This document shows, piece by piece, positions 19,182 to 25,313 of a DNA stretch of 64,000 nt. Position 1 is the first letter of the stretch. Every line of letters begins with the position of its first letter. The notes under the pieces are model-generated. The model was not told the DNA's origin and searched no databases. It saw only the letters and a program-made list of their open reading frames with translations. Source of the stretch: Chloroflexota bacterium (GTDB lineage Bacteria; Chloroflexota; Dehalococcoidia; Tepidiformales; Tepidiformaceae); the NCBI GenBank assembly GCA_026705605.1, contig JAPPAK010000001.1, forward strand, positions 806,001-870,000, written 5' to 3'. The translations under genes and the position numbers were made by a program.

Positions 19182-20030
19182 TCAGCGCGACACGACCCGC
19201 TGCAGCCAGGGCGCGAGGCCCCGTGGCGAGAGCGTGAACACGATCAGGAAGAACACGGCCGATGTCACGACGATCGCCGGGCCGGCGGCCACGTCTCCAT
19301 GGTAGGAGGCGTACAGGCCGATGATGACCGACAGCACGCCGAAGACTGCGCCCACAATCATGATCAGGGGCACCCGGCGTACCACCAGCGCGGCCGTCGC
19401 CGCCGTGGCCACGAGCATCGCCATTACCAGCGCCACCCCCACCAGCCGGAAGGCCGCCACTGCCGCCAGCGCCACCAGCACCATCAGGCCCGTCTGTACG
19501 AGCGCCACCGGTATGCCCGCCGCCGCCGCCATCGTGGGGTCGTACGCCACGAACAGCATCTCCCGGTAGAAGATGATCATCATCACGACGACCACGATCG
19601 AGAGCACGGCCATCACGATGATGTCTTCGGTGGGAACGGTCAGGATGTTCCCCACCAGGAACGAGGTCAGATCAAGCGTGTAGTTCCGCGTGCGGCTGAT
19701 CAGCAGGATCCCGAACGCGAAGAGGGCCGCGAACAGGATGCCGATGGCCGTGTCCTCGCGTAGCCGTGCGCGCGTCAGGAACGAGACCCCCACCGCTGTC
19801 GCCCCGGCTGCACCCGCCGCCCCAAGGCTGATGGCGATCGAACCGCCCCCCGCCAGGAACGCGATCGCCGCCCCCGCCAGCGAGGTGTGCGCCACGGCGT
19901 CCGTCAGGAACGCCAGCCCCCTGATGACGACGAACGCGCCGACGACGGAGGAGGCCAGCGCCACCAGCGCTCCGGCCAGCAGCGCCCGCTGCATGAACTC
20001 GAACTGCCAGGGGTCGGTAAGCCAGTCCAT
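19182..20030 (-). CDS. Metal (Zn/Mn/Fe) ABC transporter permease
   Basis: This 282-residue ABC-3 family permease has about eight hydrophobic segments. Family signatures are ALLAGALVALASSVVGAFVV, the loop with AHTSLAGAAIAF (the conserved AHxxLAG) and DPTMAAAAGIP. It imports a divalent metal delivered by the lipoprotein encoded upstream, powered by the ATPase at 20038-20877. The three genes are ordered binding protein, ATPase, permease on the minus strand with gaps of 6-7 nt. Metal specificity (zinc versus manganese) cannot be fixed from the permease. Confidence 0.9.
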   Translation of the reverse strand: MDWLTDPWQFEFMQRALLAGALVALASSVVGAFVVIRGLAFLTDAVAHTSLAGAAIAFLAGGGSIAISLGAAGAAGATAVGVSFLTRARLREDTAIGILFAALFAFGILLISRTRNYTLDLTSFLVGNILTVPTEDIIVMAVLSIVVVVMMIIFYREMLFVAYDPTMAAAAGIPVALVQTGLMVLVALAAVAAFRLVGVALVMAMLVATAATAALVVRRVPLIMIVGAVFGVLSVIIGLYASYHGDVAAGPAIVVTSAVFFLIVFTLSPRGLAPWLQRVVSR

Positions 20031-20037
20031 GTCCGCC

Positions 20038-20877
20038 CTACACCCGGGGGAAGTCGTCGTGGCTGTGCCGGGCGTGCTCGCGGCCTCCGCGGGCGTCTGC
20101 GTGCTCGTGGGGGTCGTGGAATGCCAGGGCCGGCCTGCTGCCTTCCTCCCCCATCACGAGTGCATGTCCGTCGAACGCCCGGTTCAGCATCTCCTCCGTG
20201 ATCGTCGTCGAGGGTGGTCCGTAGGTGACGACATGGCGGTTCAGGAACAGCGTCAGGTCGCAGCAGGCGGCGGCGCAGCCGATGTCGTGCGTGCAGAACA
20301 CGATGCTCCTGCCGTCGGCGGCCAGCTCCCCCAGCAGGTCGATCATCTCCTGCTCGGAGCGCGCGTCGAGCCCGGCGGTCGGCTCATCCAGCAGGAAGAG
20401 ATCGGGATTCCTCACCAGCGCCCGCGCGCAGAGCACGCGGCGCTGCTGCCCCCCGCTCAGTTCGCCCGCCTGACGGTCGGCGAGGTGGTCGACGGAGAGC
20501 CGCTTGAGCGCCGCCATGATGCGGTCCTTCTCATCCGACCCGCGCAGGAAGCGGTCCAGCCCGAACGCCTTCCGGTAGAGGCCCATCGCCACGACTTCCC
20601 GCACCGTCACGGGGAAGTTCCAGTCGATGTCCTCCGCCTGCGGCATGTAGCCGATCTGACGTCGCGCATCCCGTGGCGCCCCCCCGAGGACGCACACGTC
20701 GCCCTCCCAGGGCTCGATCAAGCCGACCAGCGTCTTGATCAGCGTGCTCTTGCCCGAGCCGTTCGGCCCCAGCAATCCCATTACCTTGCCCTGCGGCAGC
20801 GAGAACGACACGTCCTCGATTGCCCGGTGCCCCCGGTAGCCCGTCGTCAGGCTCTTGACCTCGATGGCGGGAACCAC
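20038..20877 (-). CDS. Metal ABC transporter ATP-binding protein
   Basis: The 279-residue ABC ATPase has Walker A GPNGSGKST, the Q-loop in IGYMPQAEDIDWNFPVTV, signature LSGGQQRRV, Walker B LFLLDEPTAGLD and the H-loop CTHDIG. The IDWNFPV stretch is typical of manganese/zinc/iron importers. The C-terminus ends in a short His/Asp-rich tail (HDPHEHADARGGREHARHSH), beyond the usual length, which could sense or buffer metal. It lies directly between the permease and binding-protein genes. Confidence 0.92.
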   Translation of the reverse strand: MVPAIEVKSLTTGYRGHRAIEDVSFSLPQGKVMGLLGPNGSGKSTLIKTLVGLIEPWEGDVCVLGGAPRDARRQIGYMPQAEDIDWNFPVTVREVVAMGLYRKAFGLDRFLRGSDEKDRIMAALKRLSVDHLADRQAGELSGGQQRRVLCARALVRNPDLFLLDEPTAGLDARSEQEMIDLLGELAADGRSIVFCTHDIGCAAACCDLTLFLNRHVVTYGPPSTTITEEMLNRAFDGHALVMGEEGSRPALAFHDPHEHADARGGREHARHSHDDFPRV

Positions 20878-20883
20878 CTCGCG

Positions 20884-22281
20884 CTACTCCGCGATGCCGT
20901 TGGCGATGGCACGAAGGAACTCAACATAGGTTGGGTACTCCTCAGCCAGGGCCCCGGAAGGAATCGTGCGGACGGTCGTGCCCGTGTCGCGGGCGATCTG
21001 CTCGATCACACGCGCACTGAACTGCGGTTCGCTGAAGATATAGGGTATCCCCAGTTCCTCGATACTCTCCACCAGCTCCGAGATTGCCGATGCGCTCGGC
21101 TCCTCTTCCGGACCTTCCACCACGAAGCCCAGGATCGTCAGCCCGTAGCGGTCCGCGAAGTAGCCGTAGGCGTCGTGGAAGGTGACCAGGTAGCGGCGCT
21201 CCTCGGGGAGTCCGGCAAGCTGTTCGCGGATCTCGTCGTCGAGCTCCCGCAGCTCCGCGATGTAGGCGTCCGCCCGCTCGCGATAGTAGTCCGCTCCATC
21301 CGGGTCGAGGCGTGACAGCTCGTCCCGGATTGCCTCGACGGCCTCGATCGTGAGGTCGATGTCCATCCAGAAGTGCGGGTCGAATTCGCCATGGGCGTGC
21401 CCATGGTGGCCGTGCTCGTCCTCGTGCTCGTCCTCGTGCTCGTCCTCGTGCTCGTCCTCGTGTTCGTGCTCGTCTTCGTGCTCGTGCTCGTCCTCGTGCT
21501 CGTCCTCGTGTTCGTGCTCGTCTTCGTGCTCGTGCTCGTCCTCGTGCTCGTCCTCGTGTTCGTGCTCGTCTTCGTGCTCGTGCTCGTCCTCGTGCTCGTC
21601 CTCGTGTTCGTGCTCGTCTTCGTGCTCGTGCTCGTCTTCGTGCTCGTGCTCGTCTTCGTGCTCGTCTTCGTGCTCGTGCTCGTCTTCGTGCTCGTGCTCG
21701 TCTTCGTGCTCGTCTTCGTGCTCGTGCTCGTCTTCGTGCTCGTGCTCGTCTTCGTGCTCGTCTTCGTGCTCGTGCTCGTCTTCGTGCTCGTGCTCGTCTT
21801 CGTGCTCGTGCTCGTCTTCGTGTTCGTGCTCGTCTTCGTGCTCGTCTTCGTGCTCGTGCTCGTCTTCGTGCCCGTGCTCGTCTTCGTGCGCCAGACCCTC
21901 AGGGAAGGGGCGCAGGTCCATGTCGTGCGTCAGCTCCAGCACGGAGCCCTCGGCGCTGTCCGCCAGGTCCTCTTCGATTACGCTCAGCTCCGCACCCACG
22001 ATCACGACCAGGTCCGCCTCGGTTGCCTTGCGGATGTCACTGGGTGCAAGCGCGAACGTGTGCACGTCCGCCCCTGCGGGGACGATGCTCTCAACGGAGA
22101 CTCGGTCGCCTCCCACCTGCTCAACGAGGTCCTTGACGATGGTCGTCGAGGTCACGGCCGAGAGGGTTGCGCCCTCGCCTTCTCCCCCCTCGTCATCCCC
22201 GCAGGCGACGGCAATGAACGCCGCTCCCACGAGCAGTCCGGCGAGTGCGAGGCGAAGCCCCTTCAGAAACGGCAATTCCAT
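20884..22281 (-). CDS. Metal ABC transporter substrate-binding lipoprotein with giant His/Asp/Glu tract
   Basis: 465 residues. An N-terminal lipoprotein signal ends at Cys27 (FIAVAC). Cluster A-I domain motifs are TTIVKDLVEQVGGDRV, a first metal ligand in GADVHTF (His74), a second in DPHFWMD (about His303) and a third in VTFHDAYGYFADRYG (about His369). Between them, residues 132-297 consist almost only of Glu, Asp and His, in EDEH/EDEHEH units. ZnuA-type proteins do carry a His-rich loop here, but usually of about 15-60 residues. The ATG at 22281 follows GGGAGAAACCG; a start ten codons earlier would spoil the signal peptide. Confidence 0.9.
   Translation of the reverse strand: MELPFLKGLRLALAGLLVGAAFIAVACGDDEGGEGEGATLSAVTSTTIVKDLVEQVGGDRVSVESIVPAGADVHTFALAPSDIRKATEADLVVIVGAELSVIEEDLADSAEGSVLELTHDMDLRPFPEGLAHEDEHGHEDEHEHEDEHEDEHEHEDEHEHEDEHEHEDEHEHEDEHEDEHEHEDEHEHEDEHEDEHEHEDEHEHEDEHEDEHEHEDEHEHEDEHEHEDEHEDEHEHEDEHEHEDEHEDEHEHEDEHEHEDEHEDEHEHEDEHEHEDEHEDEHEDEHEDEHGHHGHAHGEFDPHFWMDIDLTIEAVEAIRDELSRLDPDGADYYRERADAYIAELRELDDEIREQLAGLPEERRYLVTFHDAYGYFADRYGLTILGFVVEGPEEEPSASAISELVESIEELGIPYIFSEPQFSARVIEQIARDTGTTVRTIPSGALAEEYPTYVEFLRAIANGIAE
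21391..21888 (-). repeat. 48-bp tandem repeat encoding a 16-residue acidic/His unit
   Basis: The Glu/Asp/His tract is built from a 48-bp (16-codon) tandem unit. The marker TGTTCG on the plus strand recurs at 21461, 21509, 21557 and 21605, exactly 48 apart. In the second part, the tandem EDEH-EDEH junction recurs at about 21651, 21699 and 21747. The two sub-arrays differ by a synonymous change (plus-strand GTCCTC versus GTCTTC, codon GAG versus GAA). This points to separate rounds of unit expansion. Frame is kept throughout. Confidence 0.9.
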
Positions 22282-22321
22282 CGGTTTCTCCCTCTTGAGC
22301 CAGGGTCGCATTGCGACCCCG

Positions 22322-22340
22322 TATCATTGGATCAGTGATA
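22322..22340. promoter_or_regulatory. Candidate Fur-family operator (inverted repeat)
   Basis: TATCATTG-GAT-CAGTGATA: two 8-nt arms, inverted with 7 of 8 pairs matching, around a 3-nt centre. It lies in the 147-nt divergent gap between the metal importer and the Fur-family regulator, and covers the -10 and most of the spacer of the importer promoter. Repression of the importer by the adjacent regulator is a direct inference. Confidence 0.65.
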
Positions 22341-22351
22341 TGTAGTGTCAA
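22323..22351 (-). promoter_or_regulatory. Promoter of the metal importer operon
   Basis: On the minus strand, a perfect -35 TTGACA (plus coordinates 22346-22351), a 17-nt spacer and -10 AATGAT (22323-22328). The operator palindrome overlaps it. The leader to the ATG at 22281 is about 35 nt and carries a ribosome binding site, unlike the divergent regulator. Confidence 0.65.
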
Positions 22352-22428: not shown

Positions 22429-22842
22429 GTGACCAGCATCCCCACCGGCCGCCTCGAGGACACGGGCTATCGCCTGACCGCTCCCAGGCGCGCCGTCATC
22501 GACGCCCTCGCGCGCACCGACCGCCCCTTCACCATTGAGGAGCTGAGCGAACAACTCCCCAACATCGGGCGGGCGACCGTCTTTCGCACCATCAAGCTCC
22601 TCCACGAGCTTGATATCGTCTGCCGCGTTCCCCTCGAGGACGGCCGCATCCGCTACGAACGCTCCCACAGCGGCCGCCACCACCACCACCTGATCTGCAG
22701 CGAGTGCGGCTCGGTAACCGAGTTTGTCGACCCTGCCCTCGACGAAGCCATCGAGCAGAACGCGGAGAATGCCCGCTTCGAACTCGATAGCCATAACGCC
22801 GAGCTCTACGGCCGCTGCGCGACCTGCCGGCGCCTCCCCTGA
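22429..22842 (+). CDS. Fur-family metalloregulator (Zur/Mur/Fur type)
   Basis: 137 residues. The winged helix (GYRLTAPRRAVIDAL, FTIEELSEQLPNIGRATVFR, TIKLLHELDIVCRV) is followed by the dimer/metal domain with HSGRHHHHLICSECGSVTEF and a C-terminal CATCRRLP. Two CxxC pairs (ICSEC and CATC) form the structural zinc site, and the four-His run supplies the sensory site. Divergent placement next to a Zn/Mn importer, with a palindromic operator between them, makes a zinc- or manganese-responsive repressor likely. It is shorter at the N-terminus than E. coli Fur but complete. Confidence 0.88.
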   Translation: MTSIPTGRLEDTGYRLTAPRRAVIDALARTDRPFTIEELSEQLPNIGRATVFRTIKLLHELDIVCRVPLEDGRIRYERSHSGRHHHHLICSECGSVTEFVDPALDEAIEQNAENARFELDSHNAELYGRCATCRRLP

Positions 22843-22883: not shown

Positions 22884-25313
22884 ATGCTTGGCCCCTACCG
22901 CGTGCTCGATCTCTCCGACGAGCGTGGCCTGCTCTGTGGCTACATCCTCGCGGACCTTGGCGCCGAGGTGATCCTGGTCGAGCCCCCCGGCGGCTCGCCT
23001 GCCCGCAAGGCCCCACCTCTCCTCGACGGCGCCCCCGAGGGTGAACAATCGCTCTACTGGGCCGCCTACGCCCGCAACCGGCGCAGCATGGAGCTCGACC
23101 TCGACTCCCCCGAAGGCCAGGCGGAGCTGCGCCGCCTTGCCGCCTCTGCCGATGTCCTGATCGAATCCGACGCCCCGGGCGCAATGGCCGGTCGCGGGCT
23201 CGGCTACGACGACCTCGCCGGGGTCAATCCGGGGCTCGTCTACGTGTCCATCACCCCGTTCGGCCAGGATGGCCCGAAGGCGAACTACCTCGCGACGGAC
23301 CTCGTCGTCGCCGCCGCTTCGGGAACCATGCACATCGCCGGCTATCCCGATGCCGCACCCGTCCGCGTCACCGCTCCCCAGGCCTGGCACCACGGGTCCG
23401 GCGAGGCCGCCGGCGCGGCCCTCATCGCCCTCGCCGAACGGGCCCAATCCGGTCGCGGCCAGCACGTGGATGTCTCCGCCCAGCAGGCGTTGAACCTCGG
23501 GGCCTTCGGCCAGCTCGTGAATGTCACCGCCGGCGCGCCCGAGACGGTGCGCGTGGCCGGCGGCGCCATCGTCGGGCCGGTCACCCTCAGGCTGATCTGG
23601 GAGGCGAAGGACGGCTACGTCTCCCTTACCTTCTTCTTCGGCAGTGCTGTCGGGCCCTTCACGCGGCGCCTTATGGAGTGGGTCTGCGAAGAGGGCGGCT
23701 GCGACGAAGCGACCCGCGATAAGGACTGGATCGCCTACGCGGCGCTGCTGCAGCAGGGGAAGGAGCCCTACTCGGAGTTCGAGCGCATCATCGGCGTCGT
23801 CGAAGCGTTCCTCCGGACGAAGACCAAGGCCGAGCTGATGATGGAGGCCCAGAGCCGCCGGCTGCTCATCCTGCCCGTCGCGACCGTGCCCGAGGTGCTC
23901 GAGAACCCCCAGCTGGAGGCGCGCGGCTACTGGCGCCCTCTACCCGTGGCTGGTCGCGAGGCGCGCCACCCCGGTTCCTCGGTCCGCCTCTCCGCCTGGT
24001 CCCGTCCCGACGATCGGCCCGCCCCGCGTTCCGGCGCCCACACCGCGGAAGTGCTCGCAGAGCCCGTCCGCCCCGTGCCTCCCGCGCCTGCCGATCCACC
24101 CCCGACCACCCTCCCCCTTGAGGGGCTGAAGATCCTCGACTTCATGTGGGTGATGGCAGGTCCCGCCGCCACCCGCGTGCTCGCCGACTACGGCGCCACC
24201 GTCATCCGCGTGGAGACGCCGTCGCGTCCCGGCGCCGGACGCAGCATGGCGCCCTTCCGTGGCGGGCAATTCGCCCCCCAAAACTCGCTCTTCTTCGACA
24301 ACATGAACGCGGGCAAACTCGGCCTCGCCCTCAACCTTGGCTGCGAAGAGGGCCGCCAGATTGCCCGCGACCTCGTGAAGTGGGCCGATATCGTCGCGGA
24401 GTCCTTCGCCCCCAGGGCCTTCCGCGGTTGGGGCCTCGATTACGACTCCCTGCGCCAGATCAAACCCGACCTGATCATGGTGAGCAGCTGTCTCTTCGGG
24501 CAGGACGGCCCCCTCTCCGATGTTTCCGGCTTCGGCACGATGGGCGCTGCCGTCTCCACCTTCATCGACCTCACCGGCTACCCCGACCGCTCCCCCGCCG
24601 GGCCCTTCAGCGCCTACACCGACACCATCGCTCCACGCTTCCTCCTCGCGGGCCTCCTCGCCGCCCTCGATCACCGGCGCCGCACGGGTGAGGGCCAGTA
24701 CATCGACCACTCCCAGGTCGAGAGTTCCGTCCAGTTCGTCAGCCCCTACCTGCTCGACTACCAGCTGAACGGCCGTGCTCTGACCCGGATGGGCAACCGC
24801 GATCCCGACATGGCCCCCCACGGCGTCTACCCGTCCCGTGGCGACGACGACTGGGTCGCGATCGCCGTCCGCGACGACGCGGACTGGCTGCGCCTCTGCG
24901 CCGTCACCGGGCGCCCCGACCTCGCCGGCGATGGTCGCCTGGCGACGCTCGCCGGACGCCTTGCCGCGCAAGACGAGCTCGATGGCGCCATCTCCGCCTG
25001 GACGGCAGAGCGCCTTCCCGCCGAGGCCGAGGCCACCCTTCAGGCCGGGGGCGTCCCCGCCCACGCCGTCATCCGCGCCAGCAACGCTGTCGACGACCCG
25101 CAGCTCACCCACCGCGGCCACATCGTTCGCGTCTCCCACTCCCTTCATGGCGAGTCGGTCGTCGAGGGCTCCCGCTTCCGCCTCTCCCGCACCCCCGCTC
25201 GCATCGGCCAGCCGCCGGCCGTCGGCGAGCACACCGAGCAGATCCTCAAGGAGATTCTCGGCTACGACGACGAGCACATCGCCGACCTCGCCGCTGCGGG
25301 CGCCTTCGACTAG
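22884..25313 (+). CDS. Double-length CaiB/BaiF (family III) CoA-transferase
   Basis: 809 residues comprise two family III CoA-transferase halves joined by a Pro-rich linker (about 385-415). Half one has YRVLDLSDERGLLCGYILAD, LDLDSPEGQAELRRL and NYLATDLVVAAASGTM, where the Asp sits at the catalytic aspartate position. Half two repeats the fold (LKILDFMWVMAGPAATRVLADYG broken here into its family elements, YPDRSPAGPFSAYTDT), but at the equivalent site reads VSGFGTMGAA with Gly in place of Asp. Only the first half is predicted to form the aspartyl-CoA intermediate. A TACCAT 6 nt before the ATG implies a leaderless start. Substrate unknown. Confidence 0.88.
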   Translation: MLGPYRVLDLSDERGLLCGYILADLGAEVILVEPPGGSPARKAPPLLDGAPEGEQSLYWAAYARNRRSMELDLDSPEGQAELRRLAASADVLIESDAPGAMAGRGLGYDDLAGVNPGLVYVSITPFGQDGPKANYLATDLVVAAASGTMHIAGYPDAAPVRVTAPQAWHHGSGEAAGAALIALAERAQSGRGQHVDVSAQQALNLGAFGQLVNVTAGAPETVRVAGGAIVGPVTLRLIWEAKDGYVSLTFFFGSAVGPFTRRLMEWVCEEGGCDEATRDKDWIAYAALLQQGKEPYSEFERIIGVVEAFLRTKTKAELMMEAQSRRLLILPVATVPEVLENPQLEARGYWRPLPVAGREARHPGSSVRLSAWSRPDDRPAPRSGAHTAEVLAEPVRPVPPAPADPPPTTLPLEGLKILDFMWVMAGPAATRVLADYGATVIRVETPSRPGAGRSMAPFRGGQFAPQNSLFFDNMNAGKLGLALNLGCEEGRQIARDLVKWADIVAESFAPRAFRGWGLDYDSLRQIKPDLIMVSSCLFGQDGPLSDVSGFGTMGAAVSTFIDLTGYPDRSPAGPFSAYTDTIAPRFLLAGLLAALDHRRRTGEGQYIDHSQVESSVQFVSPYLLDYQLNGRALTRMGNRDPDMAPHGVYPSRGDDDWVAIAVRDDADWLRLCAVTGRPDLAGDGRLATLAGRLAAQDELDGAISAWTAERLPAEAEATLQAGGVPAHAVIRASNAVDDPQLTHRGHIVRVSHSLHGESVVEGSRFRLSRTPARIGQPPAVGEHTEQILKEILGYDDEHIADLAAAGAFD

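Follow-up and report, generated by a model that had tools for sequence, protein, structure and literature searches.

A probable over-grown zinc-transfer loop, encoded by a 48-bp satellite, in a metal-binding lipoprotein of a Chloroflexota bacterium

In a substrate-binding lipoprotein of a Chloroflexota bacterium, the two halves of the protein are separated by a tract of 164 residues that consists almost only of Glu, Asp and His and is encoded by a 48-bp satellite. We consider it likely that this tract is an over-grown zinc-transfer loop (D-loop), which was extended by slippage or exchange and bordered on its 3' side by gene conversion, and which is used for the gathering and hand-over of zinc. 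Judged from its homologues, the tract would be comparable to the AztD-docking D-loop of Paracoccus and would not primarily be a metal sponge. We favour capture and hand-over over storage because an AztD-like domain is found in the same loop of a paralogue (paralogue B), and because a FUR-type palindrome is common to paralogue B and aztD.

The window, that is, the whole stretch of 64,000 nucleotides that was analysed, contains the following features:

19182..20030, minus strand: ABC-3 family permease (PF00950, 1.6e-62)
20038..20877, minus strand: ABC transporter ATPase (PF00005, 2.3e-31)
20884..22281, minus strand: paralogue A, a metal (putatively zinc) ABC transporter substrate-binding lipoprotein of 465 aa (PF01297, ZnuA)
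20887..21393, minus strand: C-terminal half of this substrate-binding protein (SBP), near-identical to that of paralogue B (protein 100%, DNA 99%)
21175..21177, minus strand: codon of His369 (FHDAYGYF), an SBP metal-ligand position by alignment
21373..21375, minus strand: codon of His303 (DPHFW), an SBP metal-ligand position by alignment, 8 residues past the tract
21397..21888, minus strand: 164-residue E/D/H(/G) tract, a putative expanded His-rich loop or D-loop by residue count and place in the alignment
21421..21889, no strand assigned: 48-bp satellite array of 9.8 copies in two synonymous sub-arrays (Tandem Repeats Finder and codon string)
22060..22062, minus strand: codon of His74, an SBP metal-ligand position, invariant in the alignment
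22312..22350, no strand assigned: two copies of the palindrome TGATACTnAGTATCA, degenerate at 4 and 3 mismatches, candidate FUR/Zur operators from a motif scan
22429..22842, plus strand: FUR-family regulator, a Zur candidate, divergent from paralogue A (PF01475, 3.3e-27)

The frame of paralogue A runs from an ATG at 22281 to 20884 on the minus strand, and its translation opens, by eye, with a lipoprotein-type signal that ends in ...FIAVAC. The protein matches PF01297 (ZnuA) at E 9.5e-50 with 169.9 bits, against a gathering cut-off of 29, and the ligand-position His residues are kept on both sides of the tract, in agreement with the preliminary description, which had placed the tract at the His-rich loop of a ZnuA/AdcA-type lipoprotein. 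H74, H303 and H369 are invariant in all 28 rows of an SBP alignment made of the window protein and 27 relatives picked from 80 loci; we take His74 to be a metal ligand by homology. The partner ATPase and ABC-3 permease that characterise the cluster A-I SBPs of PF01297 are both present at the window locus. The NCBIfam models closest to paralogue A are those of the anchored-repeat SBP, AztC, MntC and ZnuA, all of which score below their cut-offs. For the ATPase, the Mn/Fe, MntA and AztA models all match under cut-off, and the top model of the permease, AztB, is under its cut-off as well. Paralogue A is best described as the putative zinc-binding lipoprotein of an AztABC/ZnuABC-like importer, with the metal assigned from homology. 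On the other side of the FUR-family gene, an 809-aa ORF (window 22884-25313) resembles, by eye, two tandem CaiB-type CoA-transferase domains.

The E/D/H/G run of paralogue A comprises residues 132-295 from the ATG (78 E, 53 H, 30 D and 3 G); 161 of its 164 residues are E, D or H, the acidic residues total 108, and the longest pure E/D/H stretch is 153 residues. A composition of almost only these residues had been claimed for positions 132-297, and it holds for the 164 residues given here, but A296 and H297 lie beyond the run. In the alignment, the tract sits between both SBP halves, and its last residue is four before the FDPHFW motif. A flexible His/Asp/Glu-rich loop near the metal site marks the zinc-specific A-I SBPs (PMC7463823), and the tract has both the composition and the place of such a loop. 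Tandem Repeats Finder and the codon string confirmed the in-frame 48-bp repeat with two synonymously distinct sub-arrays that had been noted earlier. The array is reported at period 48 with 95% matches and a score of 637, and it can also be read at periods of 18 and 30 bp, all three periods being divisible by 3; the two sub-arrays differ in the choice of GAA or GAG only. Such an array is far beyond chance in the window, since the next best array scores 66 compared with 637 and none of the other tandem arrays in the 64 kb exceeds that value. Separate antisense genes over the array were also considered and ruled out: the opposite-strand frames of 331 and 321 aa are mechanical, because the repeat is stop-free.

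Compared with other SBPs, the window tract is the extreme of a continuum. This can be seen from the longest E/D/H/G runs of 101 non-fused entries, taken from 137 SBP entries of the fetched loci with N-run-broken frames left out and with imperfect de-duplication (at least one fused gene is counted twice): the median is 7 residues, the window gene is the longest with 164, and the runners-up have 108 (G004), 101 and 99 (G007) and 96 (Marinomonas). The loops of ZnuA/AdcA-type proteins had been called short, which agrees with the 12-50 residues published for His-rich loops (PMC4542158), but longer ones do occur elsewhere. For example, a ZnuA-type SBP of the gammaproteobacterium Marinomonas balearica (L155:5323-6504) has a loop of 123 residues with DEHHEDH-type repeats, which is longer than the published range and apparently an independent expansion. 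Within the genus, the genome of the window (G000) was compared with eight other species (G001 to G008): the homologues carry repeats, and both repeat units and loop lengths differ by species; the length may also vary between strains, as suggested earlier. Named contigs that match the genus at 87-96% in the C half indicate that it belongs to the class Dehalococcoidia. The repeat words are EDEH in G000, EHDDGDEHGHEEED in G004 and DEDEDDHG in copy A of G003, and the loops have between about two dozen and 164 residues; in G002, G003, G006, G007 and G008, five of the eight other species, contig ends or N-runs fall inside the tract, and these tract lengths are lower bounds at most. Restriction of the array to one odd genome is ruled out by these related tracts across the genus. 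The third SBP of G000 is without a long tract, and weak whole-protein matches on contig C2 concern the tract part of the query only. In a search of the genus genomes, no AztD was detected in G004 and G008, yet G004, which is a single 2.4-Mb contig, has a loop of 118 residues, and a long loop therefore needs no AztD.

A second gene of this family lies 571 kb from the window gene on the same 924-kb contig, with unlike flanks:

G000:C4:253000-255447 (= L008:7001-9448): paralogue B, an SBP of 815 aa with an AztD-like domain in its loop

The loop of paralogue B holds a domain of ~390 residues between two E/D/H tracts. The AztD model NF038015 matches this domain at E 7.2e-33 over profile positions 1-354 of 356, and we name it AztD-like because its 113.8 bits are under the cut-off of 400 bits. 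It also matches the solved AztD structures 6ck1 (6.6e-17) and 6cmk (1.4e-12), and the site 1 and site 2 ligands of AztD are aligned in paralogue B when it is compared with 6ck1. The AztC model NF040870, with a cut-off of 350 bits, is reached by neither paralogue (182.5 for A and 206.9 for B). The upstream neighbours of paralogue B resemble, by eye, an FtsX-type permease and a LolD-type ATPase, not an ABC-3 permease.

The nested arrangement of paralogue B recurs widely. Of the 393 genomes of the class, 40 contain AztD-like sequence, and the 38 genomes with strong matches yielded 44 AztD-like ORFs, the two weakest genomes (G263 and G271) being outside this set. In 30 of the 44 ORFs, AztD lies between the N half and the C half of the SBP; these ORFs come from 28 genomes that span eight family codes (f1, f7, f15, f21, f49, f72, f79 and f88). 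The other 14 ORFs stand alone. When the ligands were counted by alignment columns to 6ck1 (numbering of PMC6689063, with the C-terminal site 2 residue H408 left out), H99, H102 and D104 of site 2 and H124 of site 1 were present in all 30 fused proteins, and H167 and H218 of site 1 in 29 of them; the three ligand-position His residues of the SBP are likewise present in 30/30. A tandem pair of stand-alone AztD-like genes was observed in G366:C107 (L188). In the scan of the phylum, 13 of 400 genomes match AztD, seven with E values no better than 1e-4 to 1e-3; outside the class, both f119 ORFs are nested as well. Named nested examples are OY282456.1 (L118) and CATOSI010000001.1 (L120). Among the genomes of 32 of the 80 named loci, nine have an AztD match and four are fused, with all four loci named Dehalococcoidia; two of these four, G746 and G747, likely duplicate G147 and G134. 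Outside Chloroflexota, all six AztD genes with inspected surroundings (L232, L233, L238, L239, L247 and L248) are stand-alone. In Thermus, the stand-alone AztD gene is located directly behind an SBP gene. A plasmid search matched 129 of 72,556 records, and the two regions that were opened contain stand-alone genes.

The composition of the linkers is also relevant to the possibility of a neutral satellite, in which any acidic/His length would be tolerated and slippage would let the tract drift without added function. The range of loop lengths within one genus agrees with such drift, and so does the tolerated deletion of the ZrgA loop (PMC9820375). However, the E/D/H-rich composition is kept though the units differ by species, which suggests that composition is selected. 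In addition, E/D/H residues account for 50% or more of the linker behind AztD in 28 of the 30 fusions (the exceptions are G099 with 40% and G183 with 24%); on the N-terminal side of AztD, where the counted stretch also takes in the last part of the N half, the share is 25-78%. We regard purely neutral growth as unlikely.

In the comparison of paralogues, the tract acts like a border of recombination. The DNA of A and B in G000 is 76% identical in the 5' half and 99% identical in the 3' half, and the two are unrelated past the stop codon. Elsewhere, the 3' halves of A and B share 87% (G003), 83% (G001) and 81% (G005), the two of G006 share 94%, and the two 3' ends of G007 share 98%. By these values, the 3' halves are homogenised in G000 and probably in G007, and homogenisation was not seen in G001, G003 and G005, with G006 as a borderline case. 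The trees point in the same direction: the 3' tree pairs A with B of G000 at 100/99 and the two G007 copies at 100/99, and neither pair is recovered in the 5' tree, in which several inner branches are weak. With the 5' data, the AU test rejected the A+B pairing of G000 (p 0.0035), and the pairing of G007 had p 0.034. With the 3' data, an A-only clade had p 0.0069 and a B-only clade p 2e-5, but these rejections prove little because four unassigned 3' ends were outside the groups. We infer that the 3' identity of A and B arose by a gene conversion, one end of which lay within the array.

The AztD domain and its host SBP halves have discordant histories, as judged by protein identity. Across 435 pairs of fused proteins, which are not independent, the identities of the N and C halves correlate at r 0.93, and those of AztD with either half at 0.60-0.61. 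For example, AztD is 82% identical between G218 and G336, with halves at 34-38%, and 79% between G000B and G120a, with halves at 46 and 40%. In the identity profiles of chosen pairs, which do not define a breakpoint at the DNA level, the drop falls in the linkers that join AztD to the SBP halves. Slower evolution of AztD than of its host halves was considered separately and ruled out by one control pair, G120a-G120b (AztD 71%, C half 75%, N half 76%). AztD-free B copies are found within the genus in G001, G003, G005 and G007. The motif GMHEED or HMHEDED is present in the tract of B_G003 and in those of the two G007 copies, and the similar GMHEDED precedes AztD in G000B; this motif is a possible scar of AztD excision, which is only suggestive. 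We tentatively propose, with slightly less than even confidence, that the satellite may be a recombination landing site for the insertion, exchange or excision of AztD between zinc SBP families, and that the nested proteins may relay zinc internally, AztD being covalently tethered within the loop to which it usually docks. On the AztD tree (43 of the 44 rows, the second G366 copy being missing), the fused and stand-alone states are explained by 2 changes, and frequent AztD traffic is disfavoured because there are only these two.

Regulatory sequences connect paralogue B with aztD. The palindrome TGATACTnAGTATCA is found exactly upstream of the stand-alone aztD in G000, G002, G006 and G007 and with 1 mismatch in G001 and G005, which gives a match at all six loci of the scan (G003 was outside it), and it is found upstream of paralogue B with 0-2 mismatches in 6/6 species. 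Upstream of A, the palindrome is degenerate, with 2-4 mismatches, yet it is repeated in most species; the window copies are weak alone, as 0.13 are expected at <=3 mismatches. The whole G000 genome contains 4 sites at <=2 mismatches, compared with 0 for the reversed control, and these precede aztD, paralogue B and a Peripla_BP_2/FecCD-type importer, with the remaining one at a fourth place. This suggests control by a FUR-family regulator through TGATACTnAGTATCA, for which zinc would be the presumed signal, although iron or another metal is possible because one site precedes the Peripla_BP_2/FecCD-type importer. At that site, a Peripla_BP_2 SBP gene (L245:5298-6470; G000:C6:220297), with FecCD-like permeases behind it, lies just after a 1-mismatch copy and may be part of the same metal regulon as aztD and B.

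The preliminary description had interpreted the tract as a metal sponge. On this view, the main role of the tract would be surface storage or detoxification of a metal, zinc or another, without a part in transport. A single tract with 53 His and 108 acidic residues would suit this role, as would the extra weak zinc sites provided by His-rich loops (PMC4542158 and PMC9820375) and the 118-residue loop kept in a species without detected AztD. However, the gene is located beside an importer ATPase, a permease and a FUR-family regulator, the palindrome is common to paralogue B and aztD, and the tract corresponds to the loop implicated in zinc hand-over (PMC7463823). With an AztD-like domain in the same loop of paralogue B and of 30/44 ORFs, the sponge is the less supported role, and we consider it quite improbable. 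An assembly error in the array length or in the 3'-half identity is very improbable: related assemblies do break or carry N-runs in the tract, but both copies are on one 924-kb contig with different flanks, the single contig of G004 also has a long loop, the fusion recurs in 28 genomes, and the array has synonymous structure inside.

For the reading as an over-grown zinc-transfer loop, the AztC-AztD pair provides the model. The D-loop of AztC (residues 117-133, unmodelled for lack of density) and its three His residues are essential for transfer from AztD, and in a docking model this loop enters the pore of AztD (PMC7463823). Zinc is transferred from site 2 of AztD, which is located on an extension formed by the N- and C-terminal strands and a hairpin (PMC6689063), and an AztD joined at both ends would therefore hold its transfer site at the linkers. 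By analogy, the acidic/His arm may gather zinc at the cell surface through many weak sites under zinc limitation and may pass it to the adjoining high-affinity site of the SBP, while the length of the array would change via slippage or unequal exchange. In the fused versions, the nested AztD-like domain would do the gathering and transfer of zinc within one molecule. Against this reading, the ZnuA loop is described as dispensable for the high-affinity site (PMC4542158), and a His-rich loop of 61 residues is also not essential in ZrgA, an unrelated SBP (PMC9820375).

Several known systems share parts of this arrangement. The AztABCD system of Paracoccus has the same SBP family, the three ligand-position His residues and a His/acid loop at an equal place, and the AztD-like domain described here has the site 1 and site 2 ligands. 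It differs in that its AztD is a protein of its own, whereas paralogue B and relatives carry an AztD-like domain within the SBP loop; the AztC D-loop has 17 residues and the window loop about ten times that, and the scores to the AztC and AztD models of NCBIfam are under their cut-offs here. ZnuA of Gram-negative bacteria also belongs to PF01297 and has its His-rich loop at an equal place, but with a published length well under the 164 residues found here, and no satellite is described in the available part of PMC4542158. ZrgA has a long central E/D/H-rich loop with extra weak zinc sites (PMC9820375), but its fold is unrelated. The model of the anchored-repeat SBP, TIGR03772, matches both halves (1-52 and 311-482) with about 258 positions between them, and an insert between SBP halves is therefore of a known kind. 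The window protein scores 204 and paralogue B 198 with this model, compared with a cut-off of 350, and its insert is, going by the name, presumably an anchored-repeat domain, not AztD. The component parts are already known, with the insert between the SBP halves implied for TIGR03772. In AdcA, ZinT is at the chain end, not inside the loop. AdcA is similar in that a zinc SBP and a zinc-binding partner domain are in a single chain (PMC6689063), and it differs in that the partner is ZinT. In the literature searched, with subscription papers mostly outside it, neither an AztD-AztC fusion nor a satellite in this loop was found to be reported; in the available parts of PMC7463823 and PMC6689063, the word 'fusion' occurs 0 times and 'fused' once, for ZinT in AdcA. 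The natural proteins with an AztD-like domain in the loop are candidates for a single-chain form of the proposed AztC-AztD complex, open to crystallisation or direct measurement, and the paralogue pair suggests that a coding satellite can act as the edge of a gene conversion, which would be a bacterial way to swap domains in and out of a loop.

Other inserts were also observed in the loops of SBPs. In two Chloroflexota SBPs (L121 and L122), the loop of 136 and 123 residues has, by eye, an apparent duplicated helical-hairpin insert between acidic/His stretches. The loops of two Nitriliruptoria SBPs (L126 and L128; 189 and 183 residues) contain an insert poor in E/D/H with an HWHG motif, for which no domain of its own was found in NCBIfam (both) or Pfam (L126 only), and in these genomes AztD-like and SBP genes are located side by side elsewhere (L238 and L239).
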